Shown: piece after piece, positions 7,068-56,135 of the stretch
Layout: each line of letters starts with the position of its first letter
Position numbering within the stretch: the stretch's first letter is position 1
NCBI GenBank assembly: GCA_026196875.1
Contig: JAPHTP010000025.1
Span: forward strand, 1 to 64,000
Source of the DNA: Kangiellaceae bacterium
GTDB lineage: Bacteria > Pseudomonadota > Gammaproteobacteria > Enterobacterales > Kangiellaceae
Length of the DNA: 64,000 nt
Direction of reading: 5' to 3'
Program-made: the position numbers and the translations under genes
Notes under the pieces: model-generated
What the model saw: only the letters and a program-made list of their open reading frames with translations
The model's database searches: none
What the model was told of the DNA's origin: nothing

Positions 7068-8438
7068 ATGTCGAACTCTCCTACCGCTCTGATAGTAGAT
7101 GACGAACCGGATATACTACAACTTTTGGGGATAACGCTATCCAGAATGGACATCGATTCTCATAAAGCTGAGAATTTGGGGCAAGCTTATTCTCTTTTAA
7201 ACGAGAAAAAATTCGACATCTGCCTGACAGATATGCGACTACCGGATGGTGATGGAATCGAACTAATCGACTATATTCAAAAAAATCATCCAGAACTCCC
7301 AGTTGCTTTAATAACCGCACACGGCAACATGGAGATTGCTATTGAAGCAATGAAAGCTGGTGCATTTGACTTTTTGTCTAAACCCGTTGATTTAAACTCA
7401 CTTCGCAACCTCGTTTCTTCAGCCCTGAAGCTAAACACAGAGTCAAAGAATGCGAGCAAAACATCTAGCAAAATAAAGAAGCAGTTAATTGGTGATACAC
7501 CGATTATGAAGCAGCTTAAATCCACCATAATTAAATTGGCGAGAAGCCAAGCACCTGTTTATATCAATGGCGAGTCAGGTACAGGCAAGGAGTTAGTTGC
7601 TAAACTCATTCACTTTAAAGGACCTCGCGCGGAGCAGCCTTTTGTGCCTGTTAACTGCGGTGCAATTCCTTCTGAGCTGATGGAAAGTGAGTTTTTTGGA
7701 CATAAGAAAGGCAGTTTTACCGGGGCTATTTCTGATAAAAAAGGTTTATTTCAATTAGCAGATGGCGGAACTCTTTTCCTAGATGAGGTTGCCGAACTGC
7801 CTGTGACTATGCAGGTAAAGCTACTACGCGCAATTCAAGAAAAAACGATCCGCCCGGTAGGTGGAGAAAAAGAAATTCCAATTAATGTTCGAATTTTAAG
7901 CGCAAGCCACAAAGATTTGCTAATGCTAGTCAACCAGGGAGAATTTCGGCAAGATTTATTCTATCGTATTAATGTGATTGAAGTTCGAGTCCCGGCGTTA
8001 AGGGAACGAGCTGAAGACATCCCCAAATTAAGTCAGTATTTACTCTACCAAATAGCTCAGACCCAAGGCAATGAATCATTGAAAATAGCCGATGAAGCAA
8101 TTGAGCAACTTAAGCTTTACGACTTTCCAGGAAATATTAGAGAGTTGGAAAATATACTTGAACGAGCAACGACTCTAAGTATGGGACAGGAGATTCAAAC
8201 TGTAGATTTAAACCTTACCGTCGCGCCACAAATTAATACGGAACAAGTAACTCCCTCAGATACGGCAGTTGCAACAAGAGACGGTTTAACTTTAGACGAA
8301 TACCTGGAAAAAATTGAGATCGATGAAATTCAAAAGGCCCTACAAACTGCAAATGGCAATAAAACTCAAGCAGCCAAGCTGTTGGGTATTAGCTTTCGAG
8401 CCATGCGCTACAAGCTAAAAAAACTTCAATTGGATTAG
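7068..8438 (+). CDS. pilR: Sigma-54-dependent response regulator PilR
   Basis: 456 residues with the standard NtrC-family layout. The receiver domain has DDEPD at 11-15 and the phospho-acceptor Asp55 in CLTDMRLPDG. The AAA+ sigma-54 interaction domain has Walker A GESGTGKE, the GSFTGA form of the GAFTGA loop, and Walker B-like GGTLFLDEV. The C-terminal Fis-type helix-turn-helix is TQAAKLLGISFRAMRYKLKK. GSFTGA and this helix-turn-helix are typical of PilR. A good ribosome-binding site (AGAAGGA) precedes the ATG. The expected main target, pilA, is not in the window. Confidence 0.93.
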   Translation: MSNSPTALIVDDEPDILQLLGITLSRMDIDSHKAENLGQAYSLLNEKKFDICLTDMRLPDGDGIELIDYIQKNHPELPVALITAHGNMEIAIEAMKAGAFDFLSKPVDLNSLRNLVSSALKLNTESKNASKTSSKIKKQLIGDTPIMKQLKSTIIKLARSQAPVYINGESGTGKELVAKLIHFKGPRAEQPFVPVNCGAIPSELMESEFFGHKKGSFTGAISDKKGLFQLADGGTLFLDEVAELPVTMQVKLLRAIQEKTIRPVGGEKEIPINVRILSASHKDLLMLVNQGEFRQDLFYRINVIEVRVPALRERAEDIPKLSQYLLYQIAQTQGNESLKIADEAIEQLKLYDFPGNIRELENILERATTLSMGQEIQTVDLNLTVAPQINTEQVTPSDTAVATRDGLTLDEYLEKIEIDEIQKALQTANGNKTQAAKLLGISFRAMRYKLKKLQLD

Positions 8439-8557
8439 GGCTTGTTGATCTTCACTAGAACAATTTAGGGATAACAAATAAGCTCTTACATCAAGGATGG
8501 CGAATTTCCTACAGCCTCACATTCCAGTTTCTGAATAATTTTTAATCGCAACGCCGC

Positions 8558-8574
8558 GATCTCTTTAAGAGATC
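8558..8574. repeat. 17-bp palindrome with two GATC sites upstream of the pseudopilin gene
   Basis: GATCTCTT (8558-8565), one central T, then AAGAGATC (8567-8574) is a perfect inverted repeat whose two ends are both GATC. It lies 71 bases before the pseudopilin start. It may be an operator or a hairpin in the leader; there is no T-run, so it is not a normal terminator. Confidence 0.45.
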
Positions 8575-8645
8575 CTCTGATTTCATAATGAGATAAAAGC
8601 ACTAAAATAGCCCCTCAATAATAAAATGAATTTAGGGATATAAAA

Positions 8646-9209
8646 ATGAAACAGGAGTTCACCAAGGGATTTACTTTAATTGACCTTTTATTTGCGCTCG
8701 CTATTCTTGCAATACTCATCAACATAGCTGTCCCTGCATTTAGTGACCTAATTAAAAAAGGTAAAATAAAATCTGAGTCATCTGCCCTCTATTCCGTACT
8801 GCAGGCAAGTCGTGTTGTCGCGGTAGAGAGCAATGAAAAAGTAACTATTTGTCCAACTCAAACAGGCGAAACCTGTACATCTGAATGGTCAAACGGATAC
8901 CTTGCTTTTATTGATAATAATGGTAATCGTAGAATTGATGAAAATGAAACAGTCCTATTTCAAAAACTAGTCCGGTCTGAAGATATTAGCCTCAGATGGC
9001 GGGCATTTGGCGTTCGCTCGTCAATGCAATGGCTAAGCAGCGGTATTACCAATCATCAGAATGGTTACTTTGAATTTTGCTTTCAAGGAGAGCCGACTCT
9101 AGCCAGAGCCCTAATTATTTCAAAATCTGGCCGAATCAGACGCTCAGCTGATACCAACGGAAACCAAATCCATGAAAATTCTCAAGACGACGATATCGTT
9201 TGTAGTTAG
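8646..9209 (+). CDS. FimT/GspH-like type IV pilin-like protein (minor pseudopilin)
   Basis: 187 residues. The N-terminus has the type III signal KG-FTLIDLLFALAILAILINIAVPAF given in part as FTLIDLLFALAIL, with prepilin peptidase cleavage after the Gly. The usual Glu at position +5 of the mature pilin is Asp here. The remainder fits a GspH/FimT domain, with two pairs of cysteines (CPTQTGETC; FCFQ near 144 and the C-terminal Cys). FimT-like proteins in other bacteria act in type IV pilus assembly or DNA binding during transformation. It follows pilSR as fimT does in Pseudomonas, but the fimU-pilVWXY1E genes that normally come next are missing; thiI follows in convergent direction. Confidence 0.8.
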   Translation: MKQEFTKGFTLIDLLFALAILAILINIAVPAFSDLIKKGKIKSESSALYSVLQASRVVAVESNEKVTICPTQTGETCTSEWSNGYLAFIDNNGNRRIDENETVLFQKLVRSEDISLRWRAFGVRSSMQWLSSGITNHQNGYFEFCFQGEPTLARALIISKSGRIRRSADTNGNQIHENSQDDDIVCS

Positions 9210-9220
9210 ACTGTTTTGAA

Positions 9221-9263
9221 TAAAGGTTTATCGCCCACAAATACTAAGGTTGATAAACCTTTA
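9221..9263. repeat. Perfect 12-bp inverted repeat at the fimT-like/thiI junction
   Basis: TAAAGGTTTATC (9221-9232) and GATAAACCTTTA (9252-9263) are exact reverse complements separated by 19 bases. The right arm lies inside the last codons of thiI and the loop contains its stop codon. Neither side has a clear T-run, so this may be a weak bidirectional terminator or a 3'-end stabilising hairpin. Confidence 0.55.
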
Positions 9264-10704
9264 CCTGGTAGCCTCTAGAATGCAATTCCTCAGCTTGCAA
9301 CTGGCTCATCACACCTTTATCACAATAAAGCAAATAGGTTTTATTTTTATCCAAATTGTCATATGCGTGAAGCTTAAAAAATGGAACAGCAATAACTTCA
9401 TTTTTAGTCAGTTCTAGTGGCGCAATTGCAAGTTCTTGAGGATGTCGGATATCAATAATCACATCCTCACTTGAAGGTAAGGTCACAATTTCAATCTGTT
9501 CAATGTTATGGTCAGAACTAAACAGCTCATCGATGTTTTCCACTTTACGATTAGTAAAGGCTTGCTCCAATACTTCGAAGTCAAAATTAGATTCTTCGTC
9601 TTCAATTTTGTCTAGCTTCGCTTTCGTGGTCGGTTTGTCAGAAATCACCCCGCAATACTCGGGCATTACTTTTGCGAATTCCTCAGTTCCAGTTTGTCGC
9701 GAAAGAGCGATAATCTCCTGTTTGTCCATAGTGATCAATGGGCGAAGAGTTAAAAAGTCTGTTGCTTTATCAATCACTGATAGATTTGTCATAGTTTGAC
9801 TAGAAACTTGGCCAACACACTCGCCAGTAACTAATGATGGCGCATTAAATTCGATAGCAACTTTTTCAGCTGCTCGCAACATCATACGCTTTAACACCAC
9901 GCCCATTTGTGAGTGATGAACCTTGGTTAAAATTTCTGAAACAACTTCTTCAAATGGGATCGTAATAAAGAGTATGCGATGCGAAGATGCATATTTTTCC
10001 CACAAATAATGAGAAACCTGTTTGACTCCAACTTCATGGGCTATTCCGCCTAAATTAAAGAAGCAAAAATGCGTTCTGATACCTCTTTTCATCATCAGAT
10101 AAGAAGCGACGGAAGAATCGTAACCGCCGGATATTAAACTCACACATGATTCCTGCTGGCCAATAGGAAAACCGCCTAATCCCTGCGTTCGGGATTCAAT
10201 GGTGTATAACTTATCTTGTTTGATTTCAAGCTGGACGGTAATCTCCGGCTCCTTTAATTGGACCCCTTTTGCTTCACTATTATGTAAAAGCGCTCCGCCC
10301 ACTTTTTGTTCAACTTGAGTTGAATTGAACGCATGGCGCCCAGTTCGTTTTGCCCTTACACAAAAAGTCTTGTCTTTGACAACATCTGTATATTCTCGAA
10401 TAGTAACCTCTGCGATATCCTCCAAACTTTCAAATTGGTGGGTTTTAACTTTCAAGATAAAGTCGATGCCAGGGGTGTGTTTTAGCCTTTCTAAAATTTG
10501 AAGTTCGAGATTTTTTTTAGACTCGTCGTCCAACAATTTGTCCAAACGAACCTCAACAAAATCCCAAGATCCAGAGATAATGATATCTTCACACAGAGGT
10601 GTAAGAGTTCGGTTCAAATTCTTTTTCAGCTGAGAAATTAGACGTTTTCTTACAGGCTTGCTCTTTATTATAATTTCTGGAAAAAGCTTAATGACAAATT
10701 TCAT
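9244..10704 (-). CDS. thiI: tRNA 4-thiouridine synthase / thiamine biosynthesis sulfurtransferase ThiI
   Basis: 486 residues from the ATG at 10704; a TTG three codons upstream is in frame, but MKFVIKLFPEI is exactly where E. coli ThiI (482 residues) begins. An N-terminal ferredoxin-like region and THUMP domain are followed by the AANH PP-loop domain with SGGYDSSVAS, then a PEYCGVIS segment with the cysteine that forms the internal disulfide, and a C-terminal rhodanese domain with the persulfide cysteine in YCDKGVMS. ThiI adenylates U8 of tRNA and inserts sulfur received from IscS, and supplies sulfur for the thiazole of thiamine. The long rhodanese-containing form is present, so both roles are possible. 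Confidence 0.95.
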   Translation of the reverse strand: MKFVIKLFPEIIIKSKPVRKRLISQLKKNLNRTLTPLCEDIIISGSWDFVEVRLDKLLDDESKKNLELQILERLKHTPGIDFILKVKTHQFESLEDIAEVTIREYTDVVKDKTFCVRAKRTGRHAFNSTQVEQKVGGALLHNSEAKGVQLKEPEITVQLEIKQDKLYTIESRTQGLGGFPIGQQESCVSLISGGYDSSVASYLMMKRGIRTHFCFFNLGGIAHEVGVKQVSHYLWEKYASSHRILFITIPFEEVVSEILTKVHHSQMGVVLKRMMLRAAEKVAIEFNAPSLVTGECVGQVSSQTMTNLSVIDKATDFLTLRPLITMDKQEIIALSRQTGTEEFAKVMPEYCGVISDKPTTKAKLDKIEDEESNFDFEVLEQAFTNRKVENIDELFSSDHNIEQIEIVTLPSSEDVIIDIRHPQELAIAPLELTKNEVIAVPFFKLHAYDNLDKNKTYLLYCDKGVMSQLQAEELHSRGYQVKVYQP

Positions 10705-53560: not shown

Positions 53561-54202
53561 TTATTTTAAAGAAACAAATCGTCGTAATAGCTGGATTGCA
53601 TATTCATTTTCGTTCTGACCCATAATGCCATCCCTAAATTTTGAAGAAGGCGGCCTGCCCCCAACCCATACATTAACTAGCATTCGGTAAAGATCTGAAG
53701 ATCGGTCAATCACACCTAGCTGACGGCCATTGAGAGAAATTCGTGTTCTAGAATCGGCTTTGTAATAATCAACAGTCACGATATCCCCTTTCTTATAGGT
53801 TCCACGGAACATGCCGATAAATCGGCGAAGATTTTCTCCCTCTGCTTTTATATACTCAGCCTCATTGTTAATTTTAATCCCTTCGGCGAGCTTTCTTCCA
53901 AATCCTCGACCAGAAACCTTTCTTTCAGAGGCAAATCGAAATTCCATTCTTCGAGGTGCTTTTAAATAAGCTAAATCTTCGGCGCTATCATACTGAGCAG
54001 CATCGTCAACGTAAAATGCGCCAATGTAATAATCGTCGTTCATTAATTGGGTTAACCCCATACCAACCATTTTTAATGGACGGTCACCTAGCTTTACATT
54101 TTGCGCGGCTATAATTTTATCCGCTTCACTTTCCTCTGCTTTAGCTAGATTAATTGCTCCAAAAACAACTAAGAGCGTAACATACCATATCTTTTTCACC
54201 AT
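53561..54202 (-). CDS. Exported chalcone-isomerase-like protein
   Basis: 213 residues. A signal peptide (1-22, ending AKAEE) is followed by a domain of the bacterial chalcone isomerase-like family (Chalcone_3 type). Features are KMVGMGLTQLMNDDYYIGAFYVDD near the N-terminus of the domain, FRFASERKVSGRGFGRK, GTYKKGDIVTVDYY and LNVWVGGRPPS. These bacterial relatives lack established isomerase activity; a lipid or small-ligand binding role in the periplasm is the usual guess. A second, longer member is divergent 580 bases away. Confidence 0.8.
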   Translation of the reverse strand: MVKKIWYVTLLVVFGAINLAKAEESEADKIIAAQNVKLGDRPLKMVGMGLTQLMNDDYYIGAFYVDDAAQYDSAEDLAYLKAPRRMEFRFASERKVSGRGFGRKLAEGIKINNEAEYIKAEGENLRRFIGMFRGTYKKGDIVTVDYYKADSRTRISLNGRQLGVIDRSSDLYRMLVNVWVGGRPPSSKFRDGIMGQNENEYAIQLLRRFVSLK

Positions 54203-54782
54203 CTACCCCAATCTTCTGTTAGTTAGCCAGATAAATCCACTAAACCCTCGAATTCTTATTGTCATCCTTGAAGATTGCACCGCCTTTGTAGAGCGAATAA
54301 TTAGCAACTGCACTACACTAGCTTTATAAAGTTTTACTGAACCAGCAGCAAAAAGTCAATTACAATCAACAGAATAAAGACAAAAACCACCGTTTTTGGC
54401 AAAAGTATCAGGGAGTTAGCTGAAAATGGGTATTTTTACCATGGGATCCCCCATAAGTAATTACAATAACAGAGGATTTTGTCTTGAAAGATCGTGCAAA
54501 ATCGCATTATTATTGGAATTGCAGCACAAAATCAAAAATAAAAGCGTAACTCCAAGTAAACGTACTTTTACTCAGGGGAAGTGAAAGTAATGTTGGGATG
54601 GTGAAATTAGATAGAAGGTTAATTCAGACCAGCAAGCCAAAACCTTTTCATTAAGGCCAAAGTTTATTAAGACGAATAAATCTCCCCTTTTTGCAGGATG
54701 CAATCATTAAGGTTGACCTTAGGCTATTTGCCGGAGGAATGGACAATTAATAGTAGTTTTACACTTTTAGGTGGAGCCATAG
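54203..54782. other. 580-base intergenic region between the two chalcone-like genes
   Basis: Holds divergent promoters. A perfect palindrome TAAGGT-TG-ACCTTA lies at 54708-54721, 61 bases before the downstream gene, and CATTAAGG occurs twice (about 54649 and 54705). A short open frame at 54426-54581 (51 codons, ATG, no good ribosome-binding site) is not convincing as a gene. No RNA gene seen. Confidence 0.5.
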
Positions 54783-56135
54783 ATGCCAGTACACTTTTTT
54801 GATTTGCTTGATAATTCAAGACTTAAAAAGACAAGTGCTTTTTTGCTGTCAGTGTTATTTTTAATTACAGCACAAACAGCAAAAGCTGATTTGACCGCAG
54901 ATTTATCTGACGGAAAGACCCTCCAACTTCTCGGTATTGGTATGCACCAAGAACTCCGAAATGACATTTATGTAGGAGCTTTGTTTGCTCCAAGTTCAGT
55001 TTCGAATGTCGATGAGATCAAAGGTGAAACCATACCTAAAAGAATGTCGATTCGATTAGTATCCAATTATTCACATAGAAAGATGTCACGACATTGGAAA
55101 GAGCGGCTTGCGATGAACAACCCTCGAAATTTGTGGCAGCCGTTAACTAAAGAAATAGTGTTGTTTTCGAGAATATTCAAACGAAAACTCCAGGTTGGTG
55201 ACGAACTAAACATCGATCACGTTCCTGGTGTAGGCACCCAAATATACTTAAACGGAACACTTTTCCAAACTGTTCAAAAAGCCGGCTTTGTTGATTTACT
55301 GCTTAATGTCTGGCTTGGCACCAATCCTCCCACAAAAGCATTTAAGAAAAGTATTCGCGGCCAAGATGATGCTGCAACCAAAGGTGGTTTCGTTACTAAA
55401 TACTCAGCTTTGCAACCAATCGCAGGGAGATTTGACGCTGACCTGGCTCCTGTAACTCAGGTTGCAAAAGCAGAAACTCCTGCTAAATCTGCAGCCAGTA
55501 AACCGCCGGTTAGAAAGAATACTCCAAAGAAAACAACAGTGGCCAAACCAACGCCGAAAAAAGTTGCCAAGACGCCCCCAAAAACAGAACCCAAGAAGTC
55601 AAACACCAGCGAAGCTAAGCCGGCTACAACTACTCCACCTCCAAAGAAAGCTGTAGCAGCCAAAAGCGAAACGAACGCCACAGAAAAAAAGGTTGCAGCT
55701 CAGAAGCCCGACTTCAAACCCGACATAAATATCAACAATGTATTAAATCAAGCTAAACCTCCTGTCAAAAAAGTAGCATCAATAGAAAAGACCGAAAGTG
55801 CTAAACAAGCAGAAGAAAGTATTGAAGAAGACTTCTTTGATGCAGACCTATTGAGCGGGTCTTACACTCGAGATTTGATCAATGCAATCAGAAAGTATGA
55901 GAGTTACCCGAAAAAGGCTTTACAACGAGGCGATCAAGGAGATGTTGTTGCGCTTGTCAAAATAGATGGCGCGGGTGAAATTATTGATATTCAAATTGTG
56001 GAGCGTTCTGGTTCTCGAATTCTAGACAAAGCTGTTACTCGAATGGTAAGAAAAGCAGCACCATTCCAAGCAATTCCTAAAGAACTAAAAATGGATGAAT
56101 TCGAGTTTGAGGTGCCAATCTCATTCCAACTTTAG
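54783..56135 (+). CDS. Chalcone-isomerase-like domain fused to a TonB C-terminal domain
   Basis: 450 residues. Signal peptide with long polar start (to about 36, cleavage AKA-DL), then a chalcone-isomerase-like domain (40-190: LQLLGIGMHQELRNDIYVGALF, given in part as GIGMHQELRNDIYVGALF; LNVWLGTNPP near 180). A Lys/Ala/Pro-rich linker (about 215-335) resembles the periplasmic spanning part of TonB. The C-terminal 95 residues (ESYPKKALQRGDQGDV, VKIDGAGEIIDIQI, ILDKAVTRMVRKAAPF) are a TonB C-terminal domain. There is no obvious transmembrane anchor apart from the signal peptide and no exbB/exbD nearby. Good ribosome-binding site GGTGGAG. Function is unknown. Confidence 0.8.
   Translation: MPVHFFDLLDNSRLKKTSAFLLSVLFLITAQTAKADLTADLSDGKTLQLLGIGMHQELRNDIYVGALFAPSSVSNVDEIKGETIPKRMSIRLVSNYSHRKMSRHWKERLAMNNPRNLWQPLTKEIVLFSRIFKRKLQVGDELNIDHVPGVGTQIYLNGTLFQTVQKAGFVDLLLNVWLGTNPPTKAFKKSIRGQDDAATKGGFVTKYSALQPIAGRFDADLAPVTQVAKAETPAKSAASKPPVRKNTPKKTTVAKPTPKKVAKTPPKTEPKKSNTSEAKPATTTPPPKKAVAAKSETNATEKKVAAQKPDFKPDININNVLNQAKPPVKKVASIEKTESAKQAEESIEEDFFDADLLSGSYTRDLINAIRKYESYPKKALQRGDQGDVVALVKIDGAGEIIDIQIVERSGSRILDKAVTRMVRKAAPFQAIPKELKMDEFEFEVPISFQL

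Follow-up and report, generated by a model that had tools for sequence, protein, structure and literature searches.

TonB-type C-terminal domains are usually regarded as the working end of energy transducers in the inner membrane. FusB is a TonB homologue that is anchored in the membrane and contacts the protein that is its substrate; it has no chalcone isomerase (CHI) domain. In VreA (PA0674), from the PUMA3 system of Pseudomonas aeruginosa, a signal peptide is followed by an STN domain and a C-terminal domain of the TolA/TonB type, and most of the protein is soluble (PMC2729926). Among CHI-fold proteins, the yeast Aim18p and Aim46p require the catalytic arginine for haem, and one nonconservative active-site mutation nearly abolishes chalcone isomerase activity (PMC9996372). 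Here, we describe a gene that joins the two folds. It lies in a 64,000-nucleotide stretch from Kangiellaceae bacterium (GenBank assembly GCA_026196875.1, contig JAPHTP010000025.1, positions 1 to 64,000), the whole of which we call the window. We suggest, with a probability of roughly 40%, that the product is an exported periplasmic adaptor or carrier that would dock by its TonB-like tail on outer-membrane barrels. An earlier note on this DNA had described two CHI-like genes here, one with a TonB C-terminal domain; both frames lie where it had placed them, and both match the respective profiles.

Domains of the fusion protein

The head of the protein matches Chalcone_3 (PF16036) in Pfam over aa 43-191 (E 4.4e-26, 92.4 bits against a cut-off of 27), and its C-terminus matches TonB_C (PF03544) over aa 373-450 (E 1.5e-17, 64.2 bits against a cut-off of 24.6) and the NCBIfam model tonB_Cterm (E 2.7e-15). 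The earlier note had named failure of the tail in profile searches as the sign of an error; the tail matched Pfam, NCBIfam and PDB profiles alike. Its best match among PDB sequences was HasB (E 3.1e-12), but only a handful of TonB tails were matched there, and we therefore do not take the HasB match as evidence of a haem function. No NCBIfam model names the whole protein, Pfam gave no STN domain at E <= 1, and profile searches with Pfam, NCBIfam and PDB sequences gave no TolA match. A reading as an anti-phage defence gene received no PADLOC match at E <= 0.01.

The AlphaFold2 model, built on an alignment of 17 sequences, has confident folds at aa 41-220 (block pLDDT, the per-residue model confidence, of 87-96) and at aa 351-450 (88-96). 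Most of aa 225-346 has a pLDDT below 50, that is, disorder is predicted for the linker, and a helix at aa 11-31 is of low confidence. When compared with the PDB by Foldseek and VIA-align, the head has the fold of chalcone isomerases, CHI-like proteins and FAPs (best Z 15.6, root-mean-square deviation 3.0, 161 residues aligned), and the tail that of TonB/TolA C-terminal domains (best Z 11.4 for TonB, 10.8 for TolA). As predicted structures, both folds are solid, and the structure prediction proposed in the earlier note thus bears out the two domains. The linker is rich in lysine and proline, as had been noticed (20% K and 14% P over 133 residues). At the N-terminus, a hydrophobic stretch at aa 19-28 is followed by AKA|DL at aa 35, with no lipobox by our heuristic; a signal peptide with predicted cleavage at about aa 35 is likely, and the earlier claim that the protein has nothing but a signal peptide at this end is plausible to that extent. 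The features are listed in Table 1.

Table 1. Features of the fusion gene and its paralogue, in window coordinates
Feature	Position	Strand	Remarks
CHI-TonB fusion gene	54783..56135	+	450 aa, ATG start, TAG stop; orthologues found
Likely signal peptide, aa 1-35 (AKA|DL)	54783..54887	+	heuristic; low-confidence helix 11-31 in model
Chalcone-isomerase-fold domain, aa 36-212	54888..55418	+	Chalcone_3 match aa 43-191; model; PDB Z 15.6
Lys/Pro-rich linker, about aa 213-353	55419..55841	+	low pLDDT; composition
TonB-type C-terminal domain, aa 354-450	55842..56132	+	TonB_C match aa 373-450; model; PDB Z 11.4
Single-domain Chalcone_3 paralogue, 213 aa	53561..54202	-	divergent from fusion gene; Pfam match; CHI-fold model

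Thirty relatives are 25-65% identical to the fusion protein and keep its frame over its length, and the frame is therefore no chance open reading frame. The nearest relative under a species name is from Aliikangiella coralliicola (61-67% identity, depending on the alignment); the others are filed under Aliikangiella, Pleionea, Kangiella, or Kangiellaceae or gammaproteobacterial metagenome-assembled genomes.

Distribution and variation of the fusion family

The domain search across genomes that the earlier note had proposed recovered the same fusion widely. In a sample of 394 genomes of the order, a match over both domains was obtained for each of the 35 genomes listed from f1, the family of the window genome, which we take as Kangiellaceae; in two of them (G003 and G016) the match consists of two pieces of one frame. 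Six further genomes of the order, in families f13 (G048, G437, G456) and f14 (G049, G438, G457), carry the fusion; in the rest of this sample no both-domain match was listed at E <= 1e-20. A sample of 369 genomes of the class, which left family f204 outside and in which up to four candidates per genome were scored, gave no further genome with a both-domain match among the matches listed (to about E 1e-18). A sample of 398 genomes of the phylum (E <= 1e-33) gave two more fusion genomes, both from f204, a family of another order that we take to be probably Cellvibrionaceae. Of the 61 f204 genomes, 54 have a match at E <= 1e-25 and 53 carry the fusion, many with two or three matches; the exceptions among the 54 are G1146, which has a single domain only, and G1133, where the gene is interrupted by a contig end. 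Seven other genomes (G200, G253, G418, G407, G403, G356 and G417) were rejected as further carriers, their matches being single-domain and several of them including upstream read-in. The fusion is a conserved lineage in some gammaproteobacterial families, and some marine and plant-degrading gammaproteobacteria are among its carriers. The earlier note had asked whether it might be a known, widespread family with an assigned function: it is widespread in these families, and an assigned function was not found in the literature searched, which was available in part.

We compared 94 distinct fusion open reading frames, six of which are of a form we call type C. In the 85 where the linker could be delimited it has 56-216 residues; 28 linkers are K/P-rich, 13 are proline-poor charged coils (from Kangiella and others) and 44 are intermediate, E/P or A/P types being common in f204. 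Such drift in composition, from K/P through E/P and A/P to coiled coil, is as expected of a spacer. The type C proteins are from Kangiellaceae, including one on contig C76 of the window genome itself, and have a degenerate tail that gave no Pfam match, or one below the cut-off, in the four tried. That tail nevertheless aligns with the TonB tail at an hhalign probability of 97% (a single-pair value), and it ends in CKR....W.C in 8/8 sequences. Two proteins have two TonB-like tail copies (L060:5099-6712, by eye, and L179:6855-8423, with two TonB_C stretches), and two loci have fusions in tandem (L088:6211-7614 and 7786-9168; L183:6924-8342 and 8968-10407). The L088 tandem stands directly behind a TonB-dependent receptor gene.

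In one genus (g5, taken as Kangiella; L034-L042, L057, L105), a charged E/K/Q/A coiled-coil-like linker of similar length replaces the K/P type, and the one Kangiella orthologue tested has a weak TolA match (E 3.7e-6, below the cut-off). This would suit a reading in which the CHI domain is a protein-binding module and the protein has a TolA-like part in envelope organisation, with a tail that binds partners of a Tol/Pal-like, peptidoglycan-linked or barrel-assembly kind. The tail fits TolA C-terminal domains almost as well as those of TonB, and the core fusion gene of Kangiellaceae adjoins what we take to be a DapA/BamC/metallo-beta-lactamase-fold block, with no transporter noticed beside it. 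However, the profiles that match the window protein are those of TonB and none is of TolA, and other members are paired with receptor and porin genes, as described below; we therefore consider a TolA-like role unlikely.

The N-terminus bears on another alternative. By a crude rule based on hydrophobicity and the (-3,-1) positions, which is a heuristic and not SignalP and is subject to some misplaced start codons, 34 of 47 fusions have an AxA-type site near the hydrophobic stretch. At least six of the 34 sites are false and lie inside the CHI domain (G015fus, G007fusM14, G033kang, G014kang, G004typeC and G005typeC), which leaves 28 that are plausible, the window protein included; the other 19 of the 47 have no plausible site. 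The protein could thus be a true TonB paralogue, its N-terminal helix an inner-membrane anchor working with ExbB/ExbD, its CHI domain a membrane-proximal insert sensing or handling a ligand and its tail energising dedicated receptors. The 19 proteins without a site and the helix of the model speak for this, as do the K/P linker and TonB tail, arranged as in TonB, and the receptor-fusion gene pairs, since such receptors need a TonB. Against it stand the 28 plausible sites, the one in the window protein falling just before the first CHI strand, and an N-terminal stretch that is not conserved in sequence among fusions. Moreover, ExbD gave no match on either contig of the window genome that carries a fusion (C100 and C76), although 12 matches occur elsewhere in that genome, and no exbB or exbD was noticed among the neighbours read, for which sequence starts were used and no ExbB profile search was made. 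Of the alternatives it is the one we would turn to first, but we still think it improbable.

Head-domain pocket and related genes of the same genome

The arginine of the GxGxR motif, which we take to be the catalytic arginine position of chalcone isomerases, is present in 7/7 single-domain Chalcone_3 proteins fetched from the class and in 0/94 fusions by sequence alignment. The fusions have H (41), A (17), Y (16), Q (6), F (4), E (3), N (2), L (2), I (1), S (1) or V (1) instead, so that His or Tyr occupies the position in 57 of 94; in the window protein it is H55. Other residues set the fusions apart in the opposite sense: R99 is found in 88/94 fusions vs 1/7 of the class single-domain proteins, and F187 in 87/94 vs 0/7. 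With the arginine missing, neither isomerase activity nor the haem mode of Aim18p/Aim46p can be carried over to the fusions. We therefore rejected the fusion as a chalcone isomerase. A periplasmic enzyme of that type, for which the shared fold speaks, is very improbable given an arginine position changed throughout and the sensitivity of the active site to a single mutation noted above.

The paralogue of Table 1 matches Chalcone_3 over aa 28-195 (E 3.5e-20, 73.2 bits against a cut-off of 27), and its model also has the CHI fold (pLDDT 87.9). It is 580 bp from the fusion gene, exactly the distance given earlier. R99 and F187 recur in 13/15 and 15/15 proteins of the paralogue clade, and by these residues the clade appears closer to the fusions than to ordinary Chalcone_3 proteins. 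Gene order is similar as well. The gene adjoining the window paralogue is, we assume, saccharopine-dehydrogenase-like; in Pleionea the single-domain gene is followed by an M14 carboxypeptidase gene (by Pfam for one) and then a saccharopine-dehydrogenase-like gene; and in Kangiella, G438, G456 and G007 the fusion itself adjoins an M14-type gene (by resemblance in the last three). Together, synteny and the shared residues suggest that the paralogue derives from a fusion by loss of the tail. In trees of the CHI domain, deep branches are weak (supports of 22, 42, 57 and 62 among others). The hypothesis that all fusions arose once is not rejected (p value of the approximately unbiased test, p-AU, 0.30; 0.28 without type C), and a group of the paralogue clade with fusions of the same genomic slot is almost rejected (p-AU 0.062, and 0.12 when two rows are added), the groups in this comparison having been picked after the data were seen.

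Two further Chalcone_3 genes occur in the window genome (G000), one with a single domain on contig C126 and one that is fusion-like on C76; TonB_C matches in this genome number 13 overall. The gene on C76 (L058:7173-8423) is a second CHI-linker-tail gene, of type C, whose degenerate TonB-like tail ends in CKRSTSAWICF; adjoining it are two related genes that are tryptophan-halogenase-like (one checked by Pfam). The single-domain gene on C126 (L107:5832-6413) has a counterpart in a second family (L106:3231-3812), and both directly adjoin what is presumably a NagZ-like glycosidase gene; in the tree, they belong to a clade other than that of the window paralogue. A protein encoded on contig C58 (L006:1045-2415) has a mid-protein TonB_C domain with repeat-like flanks and, by eye, a signal-peptide-like start, and is possibly another exported TonB-tail protein.

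Genomic neighbours and proposed role

In G049, G457 and G011, the fusion is immediately preceded on the same strand by a gene for a TonB-dependent receptor, and two of these receptors were confirmed by Pfam (plug and barrel). A search for this receptor family in 295 genomes of the order (E <= 1e-100, three candidates scored per genome, flanks of about 1.5 kb) listed 20 loci in 19 genomes. At the four best loci a fusion comes next after the receptor gene, in the same orientation and at a distance of 66 bp in G011, 27 bp in G457, 35 bp in G049 and 119 bp in G438; at the remaining 16 listed loci there was no fusion within the flanks. The receptor-fusion pair is conserved and spans two families, with one transfer event possible. 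A second arrangement was seen in Kangiellaceae and f204 (L054, L060, L179, L190 and L192), where a porin-type gene and then a small gene lie 3' of the fusion on the same strand, the fusion-to-porin gaps in the five genomes being 22, 38, 44, 181 and 439 bp. The porin was identified by Pfam Porin_4 for one and by similarity to that one for the other four; the small gene is PstS-like by eye, with no Pfam match in the two tried. We infer that the fusions are co-transcribed with these receptor and porin genes.

Both neighbours could be seen at 82 distinct fusion loci. A receptor or porin gene is the immediate neighbour in 10, nine of them same-strand, and G438, found separately, raises this to 11 and ten. 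As a rough background, 24 of the 1275 genes across these loci carry a receptor label, linked ones included. Detection relied on four receptor and two porin query proteins, so distant ones will be missed. None of the three receptors tried reached the cut-off of an NCBIfam receptor model, and therefore no ligand can be named. The window genome has 48 receptor plug-domain matches, 47 of them over the cut-off, and on contig C80 it has a relative of the fusion-paired receptor (41% identical) with no fusion beside it. In f204, one fusion lies near a gene for a cyclic-nucleotide-binding protein (L168, L170, L173-L176, L180, L181, L185, L187, L189, L198, L199, L206 and L207; by Pfam for L170), often adjoined by a PilZ-domain gene (by Pfam for L181), and these fusions may be under second-messenger control.

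We suggest that the N-terminus of the fusion would be removed on export. Its CHI-fold domain, with a remodelled pocket, may bind a small hydrophobic or ring-shaped ligand or else a partner, and the long flexible spacer, predicted to be disordered, could span the periplasm. Because of its fold and of the receptor and porin gene pairs of relatives, we think that the TonB/TolA-type tail would dock on barrels from their periplasmic side, on the TonB boxes of receptors in particular. The ligand-handling domain would thereby be held at the exit of an outer-membrane channel, and the protein would not be an energised TonB. For the window fusion, the gene of the partner would lie elsewhere in the genome, the C80 receptor being among the candidates. 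A more specific form of this idea, in which the pocket with its exchanged arginine takes the incoming ligand, possibly haem, porphyrin-like or aromatic, while a TonB-mimicking tail sits on the receptor exit as a new class of accessory protein, strikes us as doubtful.

Several observations weigh against a docking adaptor or carrier. No receptor or porin is found next door at 71 of the 82 fusion loci, or beside the window fusion gene; 19 of the 47 fusions examined are without a plausible signal site; the canonical arginine is missing from all 94 head domains; and an unanchored domain docked on TonB boxes could block a receptor and not serve it. The link to an outer-membrane component drawn in the earlier note thus finds backing in the receptor- and porin-linked members of the family and none in the surroundings of the window copy. 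The ligand shuttle proposed there would have to work with a pocket that lacks the arginine on which chalcone isomerases and the CHI-fold haemoproteins rely.

Alternatively, the fusion could be a soluble competitor or signalling part whose tail occupies TonB boxes and tunes receptors while the CHI domain senses a signal. Fusions encoded directly after their receptors would fit, and VreA, mostly soluble, is a precedent, partner binding by VreA itself being speculation (PMC2729926). In the fusions, however, CHI replaces STN, the signalling domain in VreA, and reading the genes beside the fusions by eye gave no sigma factor/anti-sigma pair, no profile search having been made; we give this reading little credence. 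If the adaptor or carrier that we favour is right, channels of the outer membrane would be served by dedicated periplasmic partners able to read the same docking signal as TonB. The bacterial Chalcone_3 family, with no tested function found in the literature searched, as far as that was available, would also gain its first context. The receptor-fusion pairs make the docking idea directly testable.

The earlier note knew of no description of this architecture. Both domains are known, but in the sources searched, available in part, neither their combination nor its pairing with outer-membrane genes was found; the layout, however, has a precedent in VreA. None of the papers listed on chalcone isomerase with TonB was judged relevant, none was listed on CHI-like proteins of the bacterial periplasm, those on Chalcone_3/PF16036 were plant papers and one soil survey, and the receptor papers listed lacked the chalcone term. 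The available part of a study of TonB in Teredinibacter turnerae reports four tonB genes and no CHI fusion (PMC10734418); the TonB family survey that it cites (Chu 2007) may mention one.

Bacterial single-domain Chalcone_3 proteins belong to the same family as the fusion head, over the curated cut-off, and have the same fold; the fusions differ by an added linker and TonB-type tail, by the loss of the GxGxR arginine and, mostly, by R99 and F187. Among plant chalcone isomerases, FAP fatty-acid-binding proteins and yeast CHI-fold proteins, the head is closest to 6ms8_G (Z 15.6), followed by AtFAP1 (Z 13.9) and the haemoproteins Aim18p/Aim46p (8ew8 and 8ew9, Z 12.9 and 12.1), whose haem-required arginine is replaced in the fusions. 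In the CHI rows listed, identity to plant chalcone isomerases, FAPs and Aim18p/Aim46p is only 9-19%, and relative to all of these the probable export and the TonB tail are new. On the other side, the tail profile matches HasB (2m2k) and, at E 2.1e-10, H. pylori TonB (6sly), and the tail fold reaches Z 11.4 to 6sly and to Neisseria TonB (9dc4). Unlike TonB, the fusion carries this tail on a CHI-fold protein, and we saw no evidence that it is coupled to ExbB/ExbD. The tail of FusB (7zc8 and 9hi3) falls in that fold class as well (Z 8.8 and 8.0). By analogy of layout, we consider VreA the closest precedent: it shares a signal peptide, a periplasmic domain and a TolA/TonB-type domain with the fusion and differs in having an STN signalling domain in place of CHI, a short linker and adjacent sigma-factor genes (PMC2729926).

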